64,000 bases of DNA from Phaeobacter sp. QD34_24 (GTDB lineage: Bacteria > Pseudomonadota > Alphaproteobacteria > Rhodobacterales > Rhodobacteraceae), in NCBI RefSeq assembly GCF_028890115.1, contig NZ_JARCJD010000010.1, positions 62,001 to 126,000 of the forward strand. Reading direction: 5' to 3'. The notes beneath the pieces were generated by a model. The model was not told where the DNA came from and searched no databases. It saw only the letters and a program-made list of their open reading frames with translations. Of the stretch, positions 1,041 through 44,047 are shown in pieces (the first letter of the stretch is position 1; each line of letters opens with the position of its first letter). The translations under genes and the position numbers were made by a program.

Positions 1041-1408
1041 CGCCTTTTTCTCCTATCGTCCGGATAATCCTTGAATCTGTTATTCACCGATTAGAACAAT
1101 TTCGCCATTGATTTCGGTCAATTATGCGCCCCGACGCTGGTTGTCACTTTGGGCATCGCGCAGCCTTACGAAGTTTTGCGCTGTGCCACGCCGCCTTCGG
1201 GTGTCTCTGTTCGCTTCGATAGCAGCCGAACTCACCTCAACTGCGGCGCAATCATATTTCCCTAACTATCTGATATATAGACAACTTTTTAATCCGCCTC
1301 GATCTGAGTGAAGGGCGGGTGGAAAGAGACGCGGGGCGTTCAGAGACTGATTTCGGCTAAACGACCAGTCTCCGAAAGTCGGATGGCATCGCTAAACCCC
1401 TTTGAACC
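1041..1408. other. gene-free stretch between accessory operon and tRNA-Ser
   Basis: About 370 bases without a convincing reading frame. The short open frames here have poor codon use and no ribosome site. The sequence is AT-rich in places, notably around 1260-1300, and presumably holds the promoter of the 591-1040 gene. I see no copy of the tRNA 3' end that would mark an attachment site. Confidence 0.4.
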
Positions 1409-1436
1409 AAAAAGAAAAAAGGCCCCGCTAGGGACC
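1409..1436 (-). terminator. intrinsic terminator after tRNA-Ser
   Basis: Read on the minus strand, GGTCCC-TAGC-GGGGCC forms a 6-bp stem with one G-U pair. A T-run interrupted by one C follows directly. It lies 25 bases after the tRNA 3' end and fits a rho-independent terminator. Confidence 0.75.
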
Positions 1437-1461
1437 TCATCTCGGGTTTGCGATGTGCAAG

Positions 1462-1551
1462 TGGCGGAGACGAAGGGATTCGAACCCTCGAGACGGTTTC
1501 CCGCCTACTCCCTTAGCAGGGGAGCGCCTTCGACCACTCGGCCACGTCTCC
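1462..1551 (-). tRNA. tRNA-Ser (anticodon GCU)
   Basis: Read on the minus strand, the acceptor stem GGAGACG pairs with CGTCTCC. A G discriminator and an encoded CCA follow. The anticodon loop CTGCTAA gives GCT, which reads AGC/AGU serine codons. The T arm contains GGTTCGAATCC, and a long variable arm typical of type II tRNAs is present. The total is 90 nt including CCA. A terminator follows at 1409-1436. Confidence 0.95.
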
Positions 1552-1700
1552 GTCGGCCGGTATATGGGCCAAGCCCAAGGGAAACAAGGCCGAAAATCGC
1601 GGTTCGGGGCATTTTTCAATCCGGCATCGAAAAACCGCCAGGATGCAACTGGCGGGCGTTTCACGTCGGGGCTCTCTGGCATGCCTGTTGCACAGCACAG

Positions 1701-1731
1701 AAAAACGCCCGCCAGAAAGCTCTGACGGGCG
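1701..1731 (-). terminator. intrinsic terminator of ychF
   Basis: On the minus strand CGCCCGTCAG and CTGGCGGGCG form a perfect 10-bp stem with one T-G pair. The loop is AGCTTT, and five T's follow. It starts about 25 bases after the ychF stop codon. Confidence 0.85.
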
Positions 1732-1755
1732 CCATGTTTCAGCTGAAGGCAGGGG

Positions 1756-2853
1756 TCAGGTGTTGAACAGGAAGTGCATCACATCGCCGTCCTGCACGAT
1801 GTAGGATTTGCCCTCGGCGCGCATCTTGCCTGCTTCCTTGGCACCCTGTTCGCCATTGTTGGCGATGAAGTCCTCATAGGCGATGGTTTCGGCGCGGATG
1901 AAGCCTTTTTCGAAATCGCCGTGGATGACACCGGCCGCCTGGGGCGCCGAGGTGCCCTTGCGGATGGTCCAGGCGCGGGCCTCCTTGGGGCCGACGGTGA
2001 AATAGGTTTCCAGGTGCAACAACTCGTAACCGGCGCGGATCAGGCGGTCGAGACCGGCCTCGGTCAGGCCCATTTCCTCTAGGAACATCTGCGCCTCGTC
2101 CGCCTCCAGCTGGCTGATCTCTTCCTCGATCTGGGCCGAGATGATCACATGGGCATTGCCCTGGGCCGCCGCCATTTCGGCGACCTTGGCGGAGTGTTCA
2201 TTGCCCTCGACGGATTCGGATTCGCCGACGTTGCAGACATAAAGTACCGGTTTGGTGGTCAGAAGCTGCAGCATGCGCCAGGCCTTGGCGTCTTCGGCGT
2301 CGACCTCCACCAGGCGAGCGGGCTTGCCGTCTTCCAGCATCGCCTGGGCATCGGCCAGAAGGCGATCCTGCTGCTGGGCTTCCTTGTCGTTGCCCTTCAG
2401 CTTGCGCACCAGGCCCGCGCGGCGCTTCTCGATGCTTTCGAGATCCGCCAGCATCAGCTCGGTCTCGATGGTTTCGGCATCGGCCACCGGATCGACGCGC
2501 CCCTCGACGTGGGTGACATCGCCATCCTCGAAACAGCGCAGCACATGGGCGATCGCGTCCACTTCGCGGATATTGGCCAGGAACTGGTTGCCGAGGCCCT
2601 CGCCCTTGGAGGCCCCTTTGACGAGACCCGCGATATCCACAAAGGTCATCCTGGTCGGGATGATCTGTTTCGAACCGGCGATGGCCGCAAGTTTGACGAG
2701 ACGCGCATCGGGAACGCCGACTTCACCCACATTGGGTTCGATGGTGCAGAACGGAAAATTCGCCGCCTGTGCCGAGGCGGTTTTCGTCAACGCGTTGAAC
2801 AGCGTCGATTTGCCAACATTGGGCAGACCGACGATTCCCATTTTAAAGCCCAT
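1756..2853 (-). CDS. ychF: redox-regulated ATPase YchF (Obg-related P-loop NTPase)
   Basis: 365 residues, the usual length. Members of this family bind ATP rather than GTP and associate with the ribosome; they have been linked to translation quality control and oxidative stress. The P-loop GLPNVGKST is at residues 9-17. [10 protein letters not shown] and [12 protein letters not shown] follow as switch motifs, a helical insert lies in the middle, and a TGS-like domain ends the protein. The start was chosen at 2853 because a strong AGGAGG site lies just upstream. A longer open frame to 2949 has no such site. A terminator follows at 1701-1731. Confidence 0.95.
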
Positions 2854-3048
2854 ACCGGCCTCCTGATGCCACTTGGCTGCGCTTCTAGGCAGCAATGGAG
2901 TATGGTGCAAGCGGTCATGGAAAAAAGGCGCTGCCGAGATCTTGCTCACGGGTTTTCACGGTTTCTATCATTTGCTTGATTTTTCTGTCGGAACGAGACT
3001 TAAATGCACATGTTGCGGTCACCAGACGCAAACAAGCCGAGATTGATC

Positions 3049-3540
3049 ATGAAATACATTGCCGCCCTGACAGCCGTTCTCCTGAGTGCGCATGCCGCCC
3101 ATGCCGAAGACCGTGAGATTTCTATCGGAATCGGATATTCCGACTATTCCCGCCCCGGGTCAGAGAATGGTGCGCTGGTGTCACTTGACTATCGGCACAG
3201 CCCGTTCTGGGAAAAGGGTAACTTTGCGGCCCGTTTTGGTGCCGCGCTGGATGTTCAGGAAACCGGAGATGTCTTCATTGGGGCCGGTGTGGCCGGGAGA
3301 TGGGATCTGGGCCGGGCCTGGTTCATCGATGCCAGCATCCTGCCGGGGGCCTATTTCGAGAGCGTGGCGTTGAACGATCTGGGCTCGACCTTCGAAATAC
3401 GAAGCGAGATCGGGGTCGGGCGCGGCTTTGCCAATGGAACCGCCGTATCGCTGGCGATCTCGCATAAATCCAATGCCTCCACCGCCAGTCTCAATCCCGG
3501 CGTGAATTCCGTGCACCTGCGCTGGCACATTCCGCTTTAG
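3049..3540 (+). CDS. PagL-like acyloxyacyl hydrolase (lipid A 3-O-deacylase family)
   Basis: 163 residues beginning with a clear signal peptide that ends AHAAHA. The mature part alternates polar and hydrophobic residues as in an eight-strand outer-membrane barrel and ends in an aromatic-hydrophobic strand (RWHIPL). Near the C-terminus is ISHKSNAS, matching the H-x-S-N catalytic motif of PagL, which removes the 3-O acyl chain of lipid A. The position 14 residues after the histidine, occupied by the catalytic glutamate in Pseudomonas PagL, is an asparagine here (NPGVNS). Activity is therefore uncertain. The start at 3049 was chosen because it opens the signal peptide. Confidence 0.75.
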   Translation: MKYIAALTAVLLSAHAAHAEDREISIGIGYSDYSRPGSENGALVSLDYRHSPFWEKGNFAARFGAALDVQETGDVFIGAGVAGRWDLGRAWFIDASILPGAYFESVALNDLGSTFEIRSEIGVGRGFANGTAVSLAISHKSNASTASLNPGVNSVHLRWHIPL

Positions 3541-3623
3541 GCGGCTTTGCGCGCCGGGGTTGGGATTGATTTTAGCCCCAACATTCGGCACACCGGGGCG
3601 AACAGTAAACACAAGGCCCGACC

Positions 3624-4415
3624 ATGACCCGCATCGATGCAAAATTCGCTGACCTCAAGGCAGCAGGGAAGAAAGCTTTCGTCTCTTACGTCATGGCCGG
3701 GGACCCGGATTACGAAACCTCCCTGCAGGTGGTCAAAGGCCTGCCCGCCGCCGGTGTCGACATCATCGAGCTGGGCCTGCCATTCACCGACCCGATGGCG
3801 GACGGGCCGACCATTCAACTGGCCGGTCAGCGGGCGCTGGATGCGGGCATGACGCTGGAGCTTACGCTCCAGCTGGCCACCGAGTTCCGCAAGGAAGACG
3901 ACACCACGCCGATCGTGCTGATGGGCTATTACAACCCGATCTACAACCGCGGGGTCGACACCTTTCTGCAGGATGCCAAGGCCGCCGGGATCGACGGGCT
4001 GATCGTCGTGGACCTGCCCCCGGAGGAGGACGAGGAGCTCTGCATTCCGGCCCAGGCCGCAGGGCTGAATTTCATCCGTCTCGCCACCCCGACGACGGAC
4101 GACAAGCGCCTGCCGCGGGTTCTGCAGAACACCTCGGGCTTTGTATATTATGTCTCCATCACCGGCATTACCGGTGCGGCCGAAGCCGAAGCGGGCGACG
4201 TGGGACCGGAAGTGGCCCGGATCAAATCCGCCACCGATCTTCCGGTGATCGTCGGTTTCGGGATCAACACCTCGGAAAAGGCGCAGAATATCGCTTCGGT
4301 CTCCGATGGTGCCGTGGTGGGCAGCGCCATCGTCAGTCAGATCGGCGCCGGGAAGTCGGTTGATGAGGTGCTGGCCTTCGTGAAGTCCCTGTCGGACGGC
4401 GCCCACGCAGCTTGA
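3624..4415 (+). CDS. trpA: tryptophan synthase alpha subunit
   Basis: 263 residues. It splits indole-3-glycerol phosphate into indole and glyceraldehyde 3-phosphate and passes indole to TrpB. The catalytic pair appears as [16 protein letters not shown], with Glu49 and Asp60 at the positions known from E. coli. The phosphate-binding glycine segment VIVGFGI is near the C-terminus. It is separated from trpB and trpF (10.9-12.9 kb) and lies on the opposite strand, so the pathway is split over at least two units here. Confidence 0.96.
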
Positions 4416-4487: not shown

Positions 4488-5771
4488 TCAGGTCGTGGTC
4501 CCTTTGCAGGGCAGCCGGTCATGGGTGTCGCACAAGAGGCGCGCAATCGCCGGGAAAAGGTCTGCCTTTCGGGTCGGCTTTGCCACGTGATCCGACATGC
4601 CGTTCGCCATGTAGCCTTGGACCTGGTGCAACATCGCATTGGCAGAGATCGCGATGATCGGAACCGGTTGGCGTTCCTCTTGGCTCTCGACCTCGCGGAT
4701 CTTGCAGGTTGCGGTCACCCCGTCCATCACCGGCATGTTCACATCCATCAGGATCAGGTCAGCCCCCTCCGCCTGCCAGAGATCGAAGAGTTCCGCCCCG
4801 TCAGACACGATGGTCAGATCCAGGTCGAACTCTTTCAGCAGGTGGCGCAGCACCAATTGATTGGTCAGGTTGTCTTCCGCCGCCAGCACCCGCCAGCGCC
4901 GATCCGCCAGGACGGCACGGCTCCAATCGTTTTCTTCCTGTGCCGTTTGCTTCGGTGGTTCTGCCGCCTCCAGCACGAGCGAGACATGGAATTCGCTGCC
5001 CTCTCCCTCGGCGCTGGTGAATTCGATGCCACCGCCCATTTCCTTGCAGATCTGCTGTGCCACCACGAGGCCCAGCCCGGTGCCACCATGGCGCCGGTTC
5101 ACGCTGGCCTGAGCCTGGGTGAAAGGGTTGAACAGCTTGCCGTGCTGCTTTTCATGAATGCCGGTGCCGGTGTCGCGAATGTTGAAGTCGAGCAGGATCG
5201 TCTCCTCTCCCAGATGCGCTGCCGATACCGAGAAGGACAAGGCGCCCTCTGCGGTGAATTTCAGCGCATTCGACAACAGGTTCCCAAGTACCTGCCGCAA
5301 TCGGGTCGGGTCCAGTTTGGCCCAGACTTCGCCCTTGACCATCAGCCCGCTTAGAACGGTGGTAAAGGACAGCCCCTTGGCCTCGATGCGGGGGCGGTAC
5401 TGCTGGCACAGCGACATGAAAATCTCGTTCACGTTGCTCGGCAGGGTCTCCAGCTCCAGCTTGCCCGCCTCGACCTTGGAGAGATCCAGAATGTCATCGA
5501 CGATGGTGAGCAGCAGGTTGCCACTGTCGGTTATGGTGTCGAGGATCTCTTGCTGATCTTCCCGCAGCCCGCTGTCGGCCAGGGCCTCTGCCATTCCGAG
5601 GACACCGTTCAGCGGTGTCCTGATCTCATGGCTCATGACCGCCAGAAAGGCGGATTTGGCCTGATTTGCGGCCTCGGCTTCCTTGCGGGCGGTTTGCTCC
5701 CGCTTGAAGGCCGCGCGCATGTCAGCCAAGCTGCCCGCCTCGGGAAATGAAGAATCGAATTCTGTTTCCAC
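4488..5771 (-). CDS. soluble hybrid histidine kinase with receiver domain
   Basis: 427 residues from a GTG start. A short N-terminal coiled coil (about 15-40) leads straight into a HisKA domain with SHEIRTPLNG (His48). The HATPase domain has an N box near residue 168, DTGTGI near 201 and GGTGLGL near 230. A linker follows, then a receiver domain with Asp343 in LILMDVNMPVMDG and Lys398. No transmembrane or sensory domain is visible, so the signal must arrive through a partner or the coiled coil. An internal start near residue 18 is possible. It is divergent from lldD, with 235 bases between them. The partner and output are unknown. Confidence 0.88.
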   Translation of the reverse strand: METEFDSSFPEAGSLADMRAAFKREQTARKEAEAANQAKSAFLAVMSHEIRTPLNGVLGMAEALADSGLREDQQEILDTITDSGNLLLTIVDDILDLSKVEAGKLELETLPSNVNEIFMSLCQQYRPRIEAKGLSFTTVLSGLMVKGEVWAKLDPTRLRQVLGNLLSNALKFTAEGALSFSVSAAHLGEETILLDFNIRDTGTGIHEKQHGKLFNPFTQAQASVNRRHGGTGLGLVVAQQICKEMGGGIEFTSAEGEGSEFHVSLVLEAAEPPKQTAQEENDWSRAVLADRRWRVLAAEDNLTNQLVLRHLLKEFDLDLTIVSDGAELFDLWQAEGADLILMDVNMPVMDGVTATCKIREVESQEERQPVPIIAISANAMLHQVQGYMANGMSDHVAKPTRKADLFPAIARLLCDTHDRLPCKGTTT

Positions 5772-30021: not shown

Positions 30022-30090
30022 CGCAGGATTGGTAACCTGATTTGACCAAAACGAAAAGCCTGATTGCGCGGGGTTCTAGAAAGCGATGTC

Positions 30091-30158
30091 CTCCCGCCCG
30101 TCGCCGCTGCATGATACATGCAGGGCTCCCGTTGGGCCGGGCCGCGCTGGCGCGCGGC
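30091..30158 (-). repeat. structured repeat, copy D
   Basis: Read on the minus strand: first arm GCCGCGC-GCCA-GCGCGGC, then GGCCCAACGGGAG, then second arm CTGCATG-TAT-CATGCAG (perfect 7 bp), then GACGGGCGGGAG. It has the same plan as copies at 30862, 43728 and 43946. It lies in the 258-base gap between the AEC transporter and a hypothetical gene. No gene is visible in that gap. Confidence 0.7.
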
Positions 30159-30233
30159 GGGCGCATGGCGCAGCCTTTCAGCTTTCCCTGCAGGCTGTGC
30201 CGAGTGGTTTCCAGCAGAATACAGGTTCTGGTT

Positions 30234-30269
30234 CTTGGAGGGGCCTCAGCAGAGAGGCCCAACGCCAAG
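30234..30269 (-). terminator. strong hairpin downstream of the 30280-30756 gene
   Basis: GGGCCTC-AGCAGA-GAGGCCC (30241-30260) is flanked by CTTGG and CCAAG, giving an extended stem. It starts 10 bases beyond the stop of the minus-strand gene. There is no T-run, so it may protect the transcript end or act as a weak terminator. Confidence 0.4.
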
Positions 30270-30279
30270 CGCTATGCCG

Positions 30280-30756
30280 CTAAAGATCGCCCAGCATCTG
30301 AGACGCCTGAGTTTTAAGATGCTCAACCCGTTTCTGTGCCTGATCCGCATAGCCGCCCAGTTTCAGGATCTCTTCCCGAAGAACGGTCAAACGCTCACCA
30401 CTTGCGGTGGGGAGTTCTTCTAGAAGGTCGAAAAGCAGGTTGCTGGCGAGCCGCGCTTCCTTCCTGCGGTTTTCCATTTCGCTTTCGGTGCCGACCAGCT
30501 GAATGACGGCTCGGAAGGCTTCGTAGTCGCTGCCCTCCAGAGGGATTTGCTCGGCGTCCGACATTGCGAACAGGGAATGCAGCGCGTCTTTGCGGCTGAG
30601 ATGCTGCACGCTGTCATAAAGCGCCCGTGCCTTGGAGGAAGGGGCTGTCGCCACATCTCGATCCGAGGGGAGCCTGCTTGTTTGCGGGATCTCTGGTGCC
30701 GCGAGGTTTCGGGCCGCAGCGGCGGATTGCCCGACATTCTGTTGGGGGGAAATCAT
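30280..30756 (-). CDS. hypothetical protein
   Basis: 158 residues, soluble. The first 45 residues are polar and probably disordered (PQQNVGQSAAAARNLAAPE and on). The rest is predicted helical with leucine-rich stretches, for example EARLASNLLFDLLEEL, and ends in a coiled-coil-like segment (DQAQKRVEHLKTQASQML). I recognise no family. It is flanked on both sides by copies of the structured repeat. Confidence 0.55.
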   Translation of the reverse strand: MISPQQNVGQSAAAARNLAAPEIPQTSRLPSDRDVATAPSSKARALYDSVQHLSRKDALHSLFAMSDAEQIPLEGSDYEAFRAVIQLVGTESEMENRRKEARLASNLLFDLLEELPTASGERLTVLREEILKLGGYADQAQKRVEHLKTQASQMLGDL

Positions 30757-30861
30757 CTTGGCCTGGTCCTTTCTGGTTACAGGCGCAGTGTCGCACTGAG
30801 AGGTGTGTATTGCGTAAATACCCTCGCCTCGGCTGTCCTATCGCGCGCTAACGCTTTGTCC

Positions 30862-30940
30862 CCGCCGCGCGTCAGCGCGGCGCCAGGCCCAACGGGAGGG
30901 GGTGGTTCCTTGAACCGCCGCCGACGGGCGGGAGCGCTCC
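30862..30940 (+). repeat. structured repeat, copy A
   Basis: First arm CGCCGCGC-GTCA-GCGCGGCG (30863-30882). GCCC at 30887-30890 can pair with GGGC at 30926-30929. Second arm GGTGGTTC-CTT-GAACCGCC (30901-30919) has one G-T pair. The end reads GACGGGCGGGAGCGCTCC. It lies between the hypothetical gene and the 3' end of mbfA. Confidence 0.75.
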
Positions 30941-42888: not shown

Positions 42889-43248
42889 ATGTACTCCCAT
42901 GATTTTGAACGCGAAACAATGACAACCGGCGATGCGGCCATGGCCCAGACCGCCTGGTCCAGCGCCTGCGACCAAAGCAGGCTGGACACGGAAATGGTGA
43001 TCCAGCTGCGCATCTCCCTGATCCCGATCTTTGAAACGGCCACCTGCTGGTCCGATCTGCGCAGCGCCTTGCAGGCCAAGGGGTTCTACATGAAACGCGC
43101 CAAGGGCCATATGCATCTTTACGATGGCCACAGCCATGTGAAGATCTGCACCTGCAGCTCCCTGGGTTACCCCTCGGAAGAGCTGGAACAACGATTCAAG
43201 AAGTCGGCGCCCACCCGCAAGGTGCGCAAGCTGCCGGTACGCAACTGA
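42889..43248 (+). CDS. hypothetical protein
   Basis: 119 residues. The N-terminal 45 residues are polar. The rest is compact: ETATCWSDLRSALQAKGFYM, then GHMHLYDGHSHVKICTCSSL, and ends in a basic tail (RKVRKLPVRN). The W-x-x-L...L...G-F pattern slightly recalls the small domains attached to relaxases, but the similarity is weak. The start has no strong ribosome site. Its own terminator is at 43277-43315. Confidence 0.6.
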   Translation: MYSHDFERETMTTGDAAMAQTAWSSACDQSRLDTEMVIQLRISLIPIFETATCWSDLRSALQAKGFYMKRAKGHMHLYDGHSHVKICTCSSLGYPSEELEQRFKKSAPTRKVRKLPVRN

Positions 43249-43276
43249 TTTCACCCGGATCTAGCACGGATCGATG

Positions 43277-43315
43277 CCGGGCACCTCGCACGACGGGGTG
43301 CCCGGTTTGCTTTTT
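43277..43315 (+). terminator. terminator of the 119-residue gene
   Basis: CCGGGCACC (43277-43285) pairs with GGTGCCCGG (43297-43305), followed by TTTGCTTTTT. It ends 67 bases after the stop codon. Confidence 0.8.
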
Positions 43316-43439
43316 GCAGACCGGCGGCAACCGAGGGGGGCAAGTATCCTTTTGGTCAGATCAAAGCGGAAAAGATCTGCTGTTCAGTCCCTTCGGGCAG
43401 ATAGGCAGCAACGATTTGGAACGGTAACTTAGTCCTACT

Positions 43440-43600
43440 CCAGAGGGATCGTGTGATCCCCACCTGTCCAAGAAGCCGCTGCCCTCCGGGTCAGCTTCCG
43501 CAAGATCCGTATGTTGCTGTCCCCCCCCCTGGCAATCGCGGATCGCCCATCCCTACTCTGGATCGGGCGGCAGCGGCTTCGCAGGCAGACGGACTTGGAA
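43440..43600 (+). ncRNA. rod-shaped structured RNA candidate (possibly 6S RNA)
   Basis: GAAGCCGCTGCC (43472-43483) and GGCAGCGGCTTC (43569-43580) form a perfect 12-bp stem, extended outwards by CTGTC/GGCAG. Inwards lies an open bubble of 16 and 20 bases (43488-43503 and 43545-43564). A terminal hairpin follows: GATCCG/CGGATC plus GTTGCT/GGCAAT closing a loop that includes nine consecutive C's. A closing stem, central bubble and end hairpin over about 160 nt is the plan of 6S RNA. The strand is uncertain because the structure is symmetrical; plus was chosen because flanking terminators fit it. Confidence 0.4.
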
Positions 43601-43614
43601 TTTGCAAGTTTGAA

Positions 43615-43644
43615 ACAGGGTGCCGCTCTCTCTCGGCACCCTGT
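43615..43644 (+). terminator. strong hairpin after the RNA candidate
   Basis: ACAGGGTGCCG (43615-43625) and CGGCACCCTGT (43634-43644) form a perfect 11-bp stem with loop CTCTCTCT. TGTCGTTTC follows, so the T-run is weak. It could end the RNA candidate at 43440-43600. Confidence 0.5.
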
Positions 43645-43727
43645 TGTCGTTTCAGGATGGCGGTGGGCGCATGATTGATCCGTGCCGGGTGTTTTGCCGG
43701 GCGCGGGATCCATGCCGCTGGGGAAGG

Positions 43728-43799
43728 TGCTCCCGCCCGAAGGTGCCGGATCAAAGATCCATCCCCTTCGGTTGGGCGTGGCGCCGCTGACGCGGCGCA
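43728..43799 (-). repeat. structured repeat, copy B
   Basis: Read on the minus strand: first arm GCGCCGC-GTCA-GCGGCGC (43798-43781), then CACGCCCAACCGAAGG, second arm GGATC-TTT-GATCC (43760-43748), then TCGGGCGGGAGCACC. It has the same plan as copies at 30091, 30862 and 43946. Confidence 0.75.
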
Positions 43800-43812
43800 G
43801 GGGACGCTGAGA

Positions 43813-43849
43813 GGCGCCTTGAGGGGCATGTCTGCCTCCTCAAGACGCC
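43813..43849. repeat. inverted repeat in the stem-loop array
   Basis: GGCGCCTTGAGG (43813-43824) pairs with CCTCAAGACGCC (43838-43849) with one mismatch. The 13-base loop itself has GGC and GCC ends. No promoter or gene is associated. Confidence 0.6.
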
Positions 43850-43870
43850 AGATCAATTGTGAGTCTTCTT

Positions 43871-43926
43871 TCGTGTAAAGGGCAAGCCGCACCAAAGGTG
43901 CGGCGGCTGCGCCGCCCTTGACACGA
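43871..43926. repeat. cloverleaf-like inverted repeat
   Basis: The outer arms TCGTGTAAAGGGC (43871-43883) and GCCCTTGACACGA (43914-43926) pair with one mismatch. Inside, GCCGCACC-AAA-GGTGCGGC forms an 8-bp hairpin, and an overlapping GGCGGC-TGC-GCCGCC is an alternative second arm. The element spans 56 bases in the gap before livM. Confidence 0.65.
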
Positions 43927-43945
43927 GGTTGCTATTGAAGAGGCA

Positions 43946-44047
43946 GCGCCGCGTCAGCGGCGCCGGGCCCAAGGCCGTTGCGGGTGTGGTGGCGCAGCCA
44001 CCGCATTAGGCGGGCGCGGGAGGGTCTCCCCTCCCTTGCAGGCGCTC
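43946..44047 (+). repeat. structured repeat, copy C
   Basis: First arm GCGCCGC-GTCA-GCGGCGC (43946-43963), then GGGCCCAA. Second arm GGTGGC-GCA-GCCACC (43988-44002), then GGCGGGCGCGGGAGGG. Its end, GGCGCTCC, directly abuts the livM stop codon. The copy is longer and more diverged than the other three. It faces copy B in inverted orientation. Confidence 0.65.

Follow-up and report, generated by a model that had tools for sequence, protein, structure and literature searches.

The region between p119 and livM

The window, that is, the whole 64-kb stretch of DNA that was analyzed, contains 799 nt at positions 43249 to 44047, between p119 and livM, that are made up of three parts, namely, a terminator, a candidate RNA gene, and a copy of a dispersed repeat. 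The features are listed below together with two lone outer units of the repeat found elsewhere in the window; R1 designates a covariance model of the core of the repeat, and R2 a model of its unit A.

42889..43248, plus strand: p119, neighboring gene of 119 residues
43276..43306, plus strand: intrinsic terminator on the asd/p119 side, predicted from the sequence, with a 13-bp stem followed by TTTGCTTTTTG
43340..43650, plus strand: candidate gene for a structured non-coding RNA, single copy, with conservation across 4/4 genus genomes
43614..43645, plus strand: fully paired 12-bp hairpin with a CTCTCTCT loop, terminator-like end of the candidate RNA
43726-44022: composite repeat copy consisting of unit A, core, and inverted unit
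43726..43800, plus strand: outer unit A, 5' copy, 75 nt with two hairpins (R2, 83.9 bits)
43805..43943, plus strand: core, 139 nt, with hairpin H1, linker, basal stem, and three-way hairpin H2 (R1, 107 bits, E = 6.6e-28)
43861..43865, no strand assigned: GAGTC, a GANTC site of the core near its basal stem, read from the sequence
43944..44020, minus strand: outer unit, inverted 3' copy, diverged (R2, 34.9 bits, E = 3.5e-4)
30087..30160, plus strand: lone outer unit A (R2, 68.8 bits)
30862..30938, minus strand: lone outer unit A (R2, 72.9 bits)

The original prediction had described the stretch as gene-free and as containing at least seven inverted repeats. Our coding-potential script likewise found no gene between 43248 and 44048, and all seven named inverted repeats were recovered at, or a few bases off, the predicted positions:

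43277-43288/43294-43305: arms
43472-43488/43564-43580: arms (rod)
43614-43625/43634-43645: arms
43732-43752/43756-43776: arms, with an additional hairpin at 43781-43798
43813-43824/43838-43849: arms
43871-43926: stem, from the fold
43946-43972 and 43988-44005: inverted-repeat segments

The stretch is not uniform, since an ordinary terminator is also present. Moreover, a 27-nt inverted repeat absent from the original description was found, in which 43772-43798 pairs with 43946-43972 (93% complementary); it is the first of the eight inverted repeats listed in the 64-kb window (length of at least 18 nt, spacing of the two copies up to 300 nt). The last four apparent hairpins therefore belong together, as the arms of a single composite structure. 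A conserved short protein gene, named beforehand as the finding that would speak against the prediction, was sought and not found. Such a gene in 43249-44047 is ruled out by alignment gaps and codon statistics, and the overlapping open reading frames are unsupported, as many gaps in a four-genome alignment of the first 400 nt have lengths not divisible by three.

Folding of the 799-nt stretch gave -431.7 kcal/mol, compared with -353.2 ± 5.6 kcal/mol for 20 dinucleotide shuffles (z = -14.1). The z values were -10.9 for 43720-44040 (100 shuffles) and -3.75 for the rod at 43440-43600 (200 shuffles). At a local scale the signal is less extreme: the best 200-nt segment starting in the stretch (at 43801) ranks 8th of 638 across the 64 kb by z (-3.4), probably because segments of this length sever long-range pairs.

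The p119 product had no Pfam match, and homologues that are 28 to 49% identical occur near asd in some Rhodobacteraceae. A weak isrB match inside the p119 gene (window positions 42932-43013, minus strand; 26.6 bits versus a gathering score of 35) is probably due to chance.

The region 43340-43650 is, judging from its sequence, probably a separate gene for a non-coding RNA, and it has a terminator-like hairpin of its own. The candidate starts near TATCCTTTTGG, includes the conserved rod at 43472-43580, and folds with z values of -5.4, -3.4, and -6.3 relative to shuffles in three genomes; gaps in its alignments (A1 and A7) across the four genus genomes are often not multiples of three. The hairpin at 43614-43645 is nearly identical in all four of these genomes; its T-tract is imperfect, and it is missing from the list produced by our terminator scan. 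With BLAST, the region had no second place in its own genome and was nearly confined to the genus: 2 of the 149 family genomes matched, namely, its own and one more with a match of 25 nt. No Rfam match over the gathering score was obtained for 43340-43650, and 6S RNA was rejected as its identity, the sole RF00013 match in the genome lying elsewhere (C4:81657-81809) and below the cut-off. The original suggestion of one or more non-coding RNA genes is thus plausible for this region, which is conserved in the genus and has a terminator-like 3' hairpin; for the repeat core, the base-pair statistics described below argue against a single-stranded RNA as the conserved entity. In Parasedimentitalea denitrificans, the TATCCTTTTGG motif also precedes a p119 homologue (L021, 6039-6090; nhmmer E = 0.0039), and in Tritonibacter litoralis it lies directly after asd on the other strand (L029, about 5052-5062, minus).

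A comparison of the asd-liv junction among relatives, proposed together with the original prediction, revealed that parts of the repeat come and go. The arrangement of unit, core, and inverted unit is present in the window, in the congeneric genome G001, and, degraded, in G003; G002 has a unit and a core without the inverted unit. In T. litoralis (L029), asd-p119-livM is kept with a lone unit (R2, 40.9 bits) and no core. R1 had no match when it was run against 80 named asd loci. The idea of a landing zone for structured elements accordingly holds for 43726-44022, which is a dispersed-repeat copy at a junction that varies among genomes. At the G001 junction, the RNA candidate and the repeat are separated by about 3 kb of additional DNA (L131, G001:C3, about 1300-4250), which has long open frames and is absent from the other three genus genomes.

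Copies of the composite repeat and their genomic positions

BLAST located the repeat in 30 places of its own genome. With R1 we obtained 21 matches there, corresponding to 20 distinct ones and one weak reverse-strand match, and 18, 19, and 16 matches in the three congeners. R2 gave 87 matches in the own genome, 84, 52, and 61 in the congeners, and 31 in G008, with no match in G004, G005, G007, and G021. Across the Rhodobacteraceae, R1 matched at least 65 of 394 sampled genomes and R2 at least 44 of 295, these counts being lower bounds because only 8 to 16 candidates were scored per genome. In a draw of 385 genomes of the class, R1 also matched at least 7 that belong to other families, with three matches spanning the full model.

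The modules occur as unit-core-inverted unit, unit-core, core-less paired units, lone units, and lone cores, and some genomes harbor one module only (core in G007 and G021, unit in G008). A unit lies just upstream in the same orientation for 17 of the 20 own cores. Terminal inverted repeats, a criterion for MITEs, are present in that unit A and a downstream inverted unit flank the core, but this applies to only 8/20 own cores. Two places between inverted unit pairs (window positions 30161-30861, and L010) were examined for a mobile-element gene, and one gene is called at each; the one in 30161-30861 had no Pfam match. A T-rich tract behind the last unit hairpin is lacking in most home-genus copies, and in L185 and L186 it lies just upstream of the core; where it is present, the hairpin and tract resemble an intrinsic terminator. 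When the window copy and 16 fetched loci were searched against Rfam, no repeat sequence scored above the gathering score; only tRNAs passed, in L191.

In G021, five copies are 90 to 94% identical over ~248 nt and have unrelated flanks, one of them starting right at a stop codon. The near-identity is a sign of what appears to be recent dispersal; no consistent target duplication was found in the five copies. A REP-transposase partner was sought and not found, as the Y1 transposase (Y1_Tnp, PF01797; RAYT-type) had 0 matches in the home genome, with 5 of 14 control genomes positive in the same search.

Gene orientations were taken from a gene caller based on codon statistics, which was checked on the genes of the window; L220 and L197 were scored as unknown, as the caller starts a gene inside the core. 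The own cores (n = 20) lie between convergent genes in 12 cases, tandem genes in 7, and divergent genes in none, with 1 unknown. The corresponding values are 12, 5, 0, and 1 for G002 (n = 18) and 19, 15, 1, and 1 for other genomes (n = 36), and ten further cores from G001 and G003 include 8 convergent and 2 tandem cases. The distribution of the own cores differs from that of the gene pairs in the window, which are 8 convergent, 48 tandem, and 9 divergent (Fisher p = 2.6e-5). Of 29 lone or paired units examined, 20 have an upstream gene on the same strand, and 18 of these 20 begin 5 to 46 nt past its stop codon; the 29 were drawn from 49 matches by leaving out duplicates, the composite copy of the window, and weaker partner units. 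For copies without a same-strand gene, no tRNA gene was found as the upstream partner in 16 of the 17 loci scanned. At L191, a core lies downstream of two tandem tRNA-Asp genes, and the association with gene ends therefore extends beyond coding genes.

Of the 19 copies in G002, 18 were fetched, and each of these 18 shares its junction with an own core; the composite repeat is stable in position within the genus. The genes next to own cores are unrelated (ruvB, ispE, and genes for a xanthine permease, an aromatic transaminase, an FKBP isomerase, and a LysR regulator), and those next to cores elsewhere encode a betaine-aldehyde dehydrogenase, glycerol kinase, a TRAP permease, and SMC. A co-regulated regulon was discarded as an explanation, the neighbors being functionally unrelated. 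We also discarded the rule that the core always lies behind a same-strand gene, as this holds for either orientation in convergent pairs and the tandem cases show both. At the junction between the glycerol kinase and FAD-monooxygenase genes, the core is found in opposite orientations in different genera, which could have arisen through recombination between inverted flanking units.

Base pairing in the core and rival explanations

Enterobacteria are well known for their extragenic palindromic repeats, and in the present family the question of whether selection acts on DNA or RNA can be addressed by counting. In 61 aligned core matches, 36 pairs were evaluated; 93.4% of the cells are standard pairs, and two-sided changes are present in 31/36. 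None of 500 shuffles matched any of five measures, and slid partners were 33 to 45% paired. This alignment includes four weak reverse-strand matches and was fitted to the model, which favors pairing. An independent check, run in both directions, combined pairwise alignments with single-sequence folds for 18 ortholog pairs from the own genome and G002. Two-sided compensated pairs numbered 69 versus 25 expected (maximum of 40 in 300 simulations), broken pairs numbered 214 versus 393 expected, and the substitution rate was 0.13 at paired and 0.29 at unpaired sites. Pairing has thus been preserved after insertion, as indicated by the excess of compensation and the deficit of breaks among orthologs; the counts are not independent events because ortholog rows share history.

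An RNA acting from one strand tolerates G-U but not A-C, so that parity between the two tells selection on a single-strand RNA from selection on DNA or on both strands. Among 1780 cells at pairs of the core with a Watson-Crick majority, the G-U:A-C ratio was 26:26. In RNase P, used as a control from 15 Rhodobacteraceae genomes, it was 46:4 among 1327 cells (Fisher p = 2.7e-6 for the difference, the cells not being independent). Both counts leave out pairs that are <80% canonical or <60% occupied, and the core G-U:A-C and GANTC counts leave out the four weak reverse-strand rows of alignment A4; for RNase P, 25 loci were sampled, of which 16 were from the same family and 15 were aligned, L302 being left out. 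Without the pair filter the ratio was 37:38 on A4 and 31:17 on A5, and when pairs with a G-U majority were also counted, RNase P gave 124:4 and unit A 51:6. By subset, the ratios were 11:13 for non-genus cores, 15:11 for genus cores, and 11:6 for unit A, and in the genus rows of alignment A8 the ratio was 35:22; the slight G-U excess in genus rows makes some selection on a one-strand RNA possible. Given the parity in the core, pairing is kept nearly alike on both strands. Either palindromic DNA is selected, or both transcripts fold, or template-switch correction acts in a strand-symmetric manner. Many of the unpaired bases in the core are also invariant, something that a palindrome alone would not require.

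Our results demonstrate that the repeat is modular in build, is present in copies throughout the genome, is placed at gene ends, mostly those of convergent genes, and has retained strand-symmetric pairing after insertion. Its hairpin-forming copies lie at gene ends across many marine bacteria and probably mark or separate neighboring genes. On balance, we lean toward reading the dispersed composite repeat of which 43726-44022 is a copy as an extragenic palindromic element, similar to CIRs and BIMEs, that would act as a two-way boundary at gene ends. The element would have spread as a non-autonomous, MITE-like element, as the recent near-identical copies in one relative suggest. It may have been retained in that a DNA palindrome, or hairpins in both of two converging transcripts, would provide a boundary effective in both directions. 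Such a boundary may stop or protect transcripts that run towards each other, and/or the palindrome may extrude as a cruciform that is recognized by proteins.

The strongest rival is a neutral MITE-like relic with no present function, in which template switching, being strand-symmetric, keeps palindromes perfect without selection. We consider this somewhat unlikely. The strand-symmetric and almost purely Watson-Crick pairing agrees with it, as do the dispersal in G021, the unrelated neighbors, and the lineage-specific presence. The fixed junctions of the 18 fetched G002 copies, a substitution rate at paired sites that is half of that at unpaired sites, the conservation of unpaired motifs across genera, and the avoidance of divergent intergenic regions, however, are not what a relic would predict.

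The copies might also be strong bidirectional transcription terminators that were simply multiplied by recombination, an explanation that we regard as unlikely. Although they are located at gene ends, and a T-rich tract follows the last hairpin of the unit in L016, L185, and L186, the window copy has no T-tract after its unit hairpin, no strong terminator is listed within the repeat, and a conserved three-way structure of 140 nt exceeds what a terminator needs.

It is decidedly doubtful that the core is a functional one-strand RNA belonging to a family of small RNAs, whether derived from 3' UTRs or free-standing. The main result against the core being an ordinary small RNA is the parity described above, which is unlike RNase P. 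In addition, no sigma-70-like promoter was found in the scanned stretch, tandem contexts hold both orientations (4 on the same and 3 on the opposite strand in the own genome, 9 and 6 in other genera), and the glycerol-kinase junction carries the core either way around. These points stand against strong covariation in the core, conserved unpaired motifs such as CTGAGA and GCAGGTCTGCC, and a fixed distance of ~85 to 115 nt between most cores and a same-strand stop codon, all of which would suit a small RNA. During genome annotation, copies of the repeat will probably be misread as sRNA genes.

A cis-regulatory RNA such as a riboswitch is extremely improbable and largely refuted by location, because most copies lie behind genes and face a convergent gene, the neighbors share no pathway, and there is no Rfam match, even though the element is structured and conserved and in three genomes lies between a betaine-aldehyde dehydrogenase gene and the next gene.

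GANTC sites and relationship to known repeats

GANTC is the site of CcrM. Its density is 5.9/kb in 57 core copies, compared with 0.95/kb across 26 fetched loci and a value of 0.94/kb for the window. Of 28 non-genus genomes, 14 have at least one fetched copy with GANTC in both basal-stem arms; in the home genus these sites are largely missing (3 of 21 copies per arm). L270, a distant match outside the family, also carries GANTC in the basal-stem arms. The GANTC-bearing basal stems that many relatives have hint at a connection with CcrM methylation, and the GANTC-rich stem points to a testable tie between gene-end repeats and cell-cycle methylation. A more specific version of the boundary reading, in which a cruciform with a strand-symmetric fold at converging gene ends would have CcrM-methylatable GANTC arms and a strength that depends on replication-linked hemimethylation, with the units as swappable adaptors on either side of a core common to many genera, is speculative and very unlikely to be correct in full.

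Among known repeats, the closest kind appears to be the CIR, compared by description only. CIRs exceed 100 nt, have an inverted-repeat organization, and are located at gene 3' ends. According to passages of PMC10969869, which credits these Caulobacter CcrM-associated intergenic repeats to Chen and Shapiro (2003), they are long, strictly intergenic, GANTC-linked, and found in Alphaproteobacteria, like the composite repeat. The composite repeat has an above-background GANTC density and long intergenic inverted repeats at gene ends, both of which are CIR-type features. It differs in that its home-genus copies have mostly lost GANTC and its core is bracketed by separate units of ~75 nt.

REP, BIME, and REPIN elements of enterobacteria and pseudomonads are, like unit A, extragenic palindromes near stop codons that occur singly or in inverted pairs, and in BIME-like mosaics other motifs lie between the units, as here. 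In contrast to a REP unit of ~35 nt, unit A has ~75 nt and two hairpins, and the home genome is devoid of a Y1 (RAYT-type) transposase. The core between the units is, unlike in REP/BIME, itself a widespread structured module. ERIC- and MITE-like palindromic repeats share a length of 100 to 300 nt, intergenic location, high copy number, structure on both strands, and non-coding nature, but, as far as descriptions allow comparison, they lack the unit-core-unit build and a core that is widespread with different 5' parts. RIME/ABC elements of rhizobia are likewise alphaproteobacterial intergenic mosaic palindromes; compared by description, they differ in that their hosts belong to a different family. 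REP-type elements of S. meliloti can be transcribed, according to a passage of PMC2873474. No description of the composite repeat was found in the open-license PMC papers that were searched, a weak indication of novelty, and as far as those papers go this is a real, previously unnamed family.

Core-like or arm-like matches were also observed in 9 records of Leisingera plasmids, and unit matches in 2 records of Tritonibacter mobilis replicons; the repeat is therefore present on extrachromosomal replicons as well. In G336, eight places match only model positions of about 59-132, the part that forms hairpin H2. Their scores are nearly equal, as though H2 by itself had turned into a high-copy repeat.
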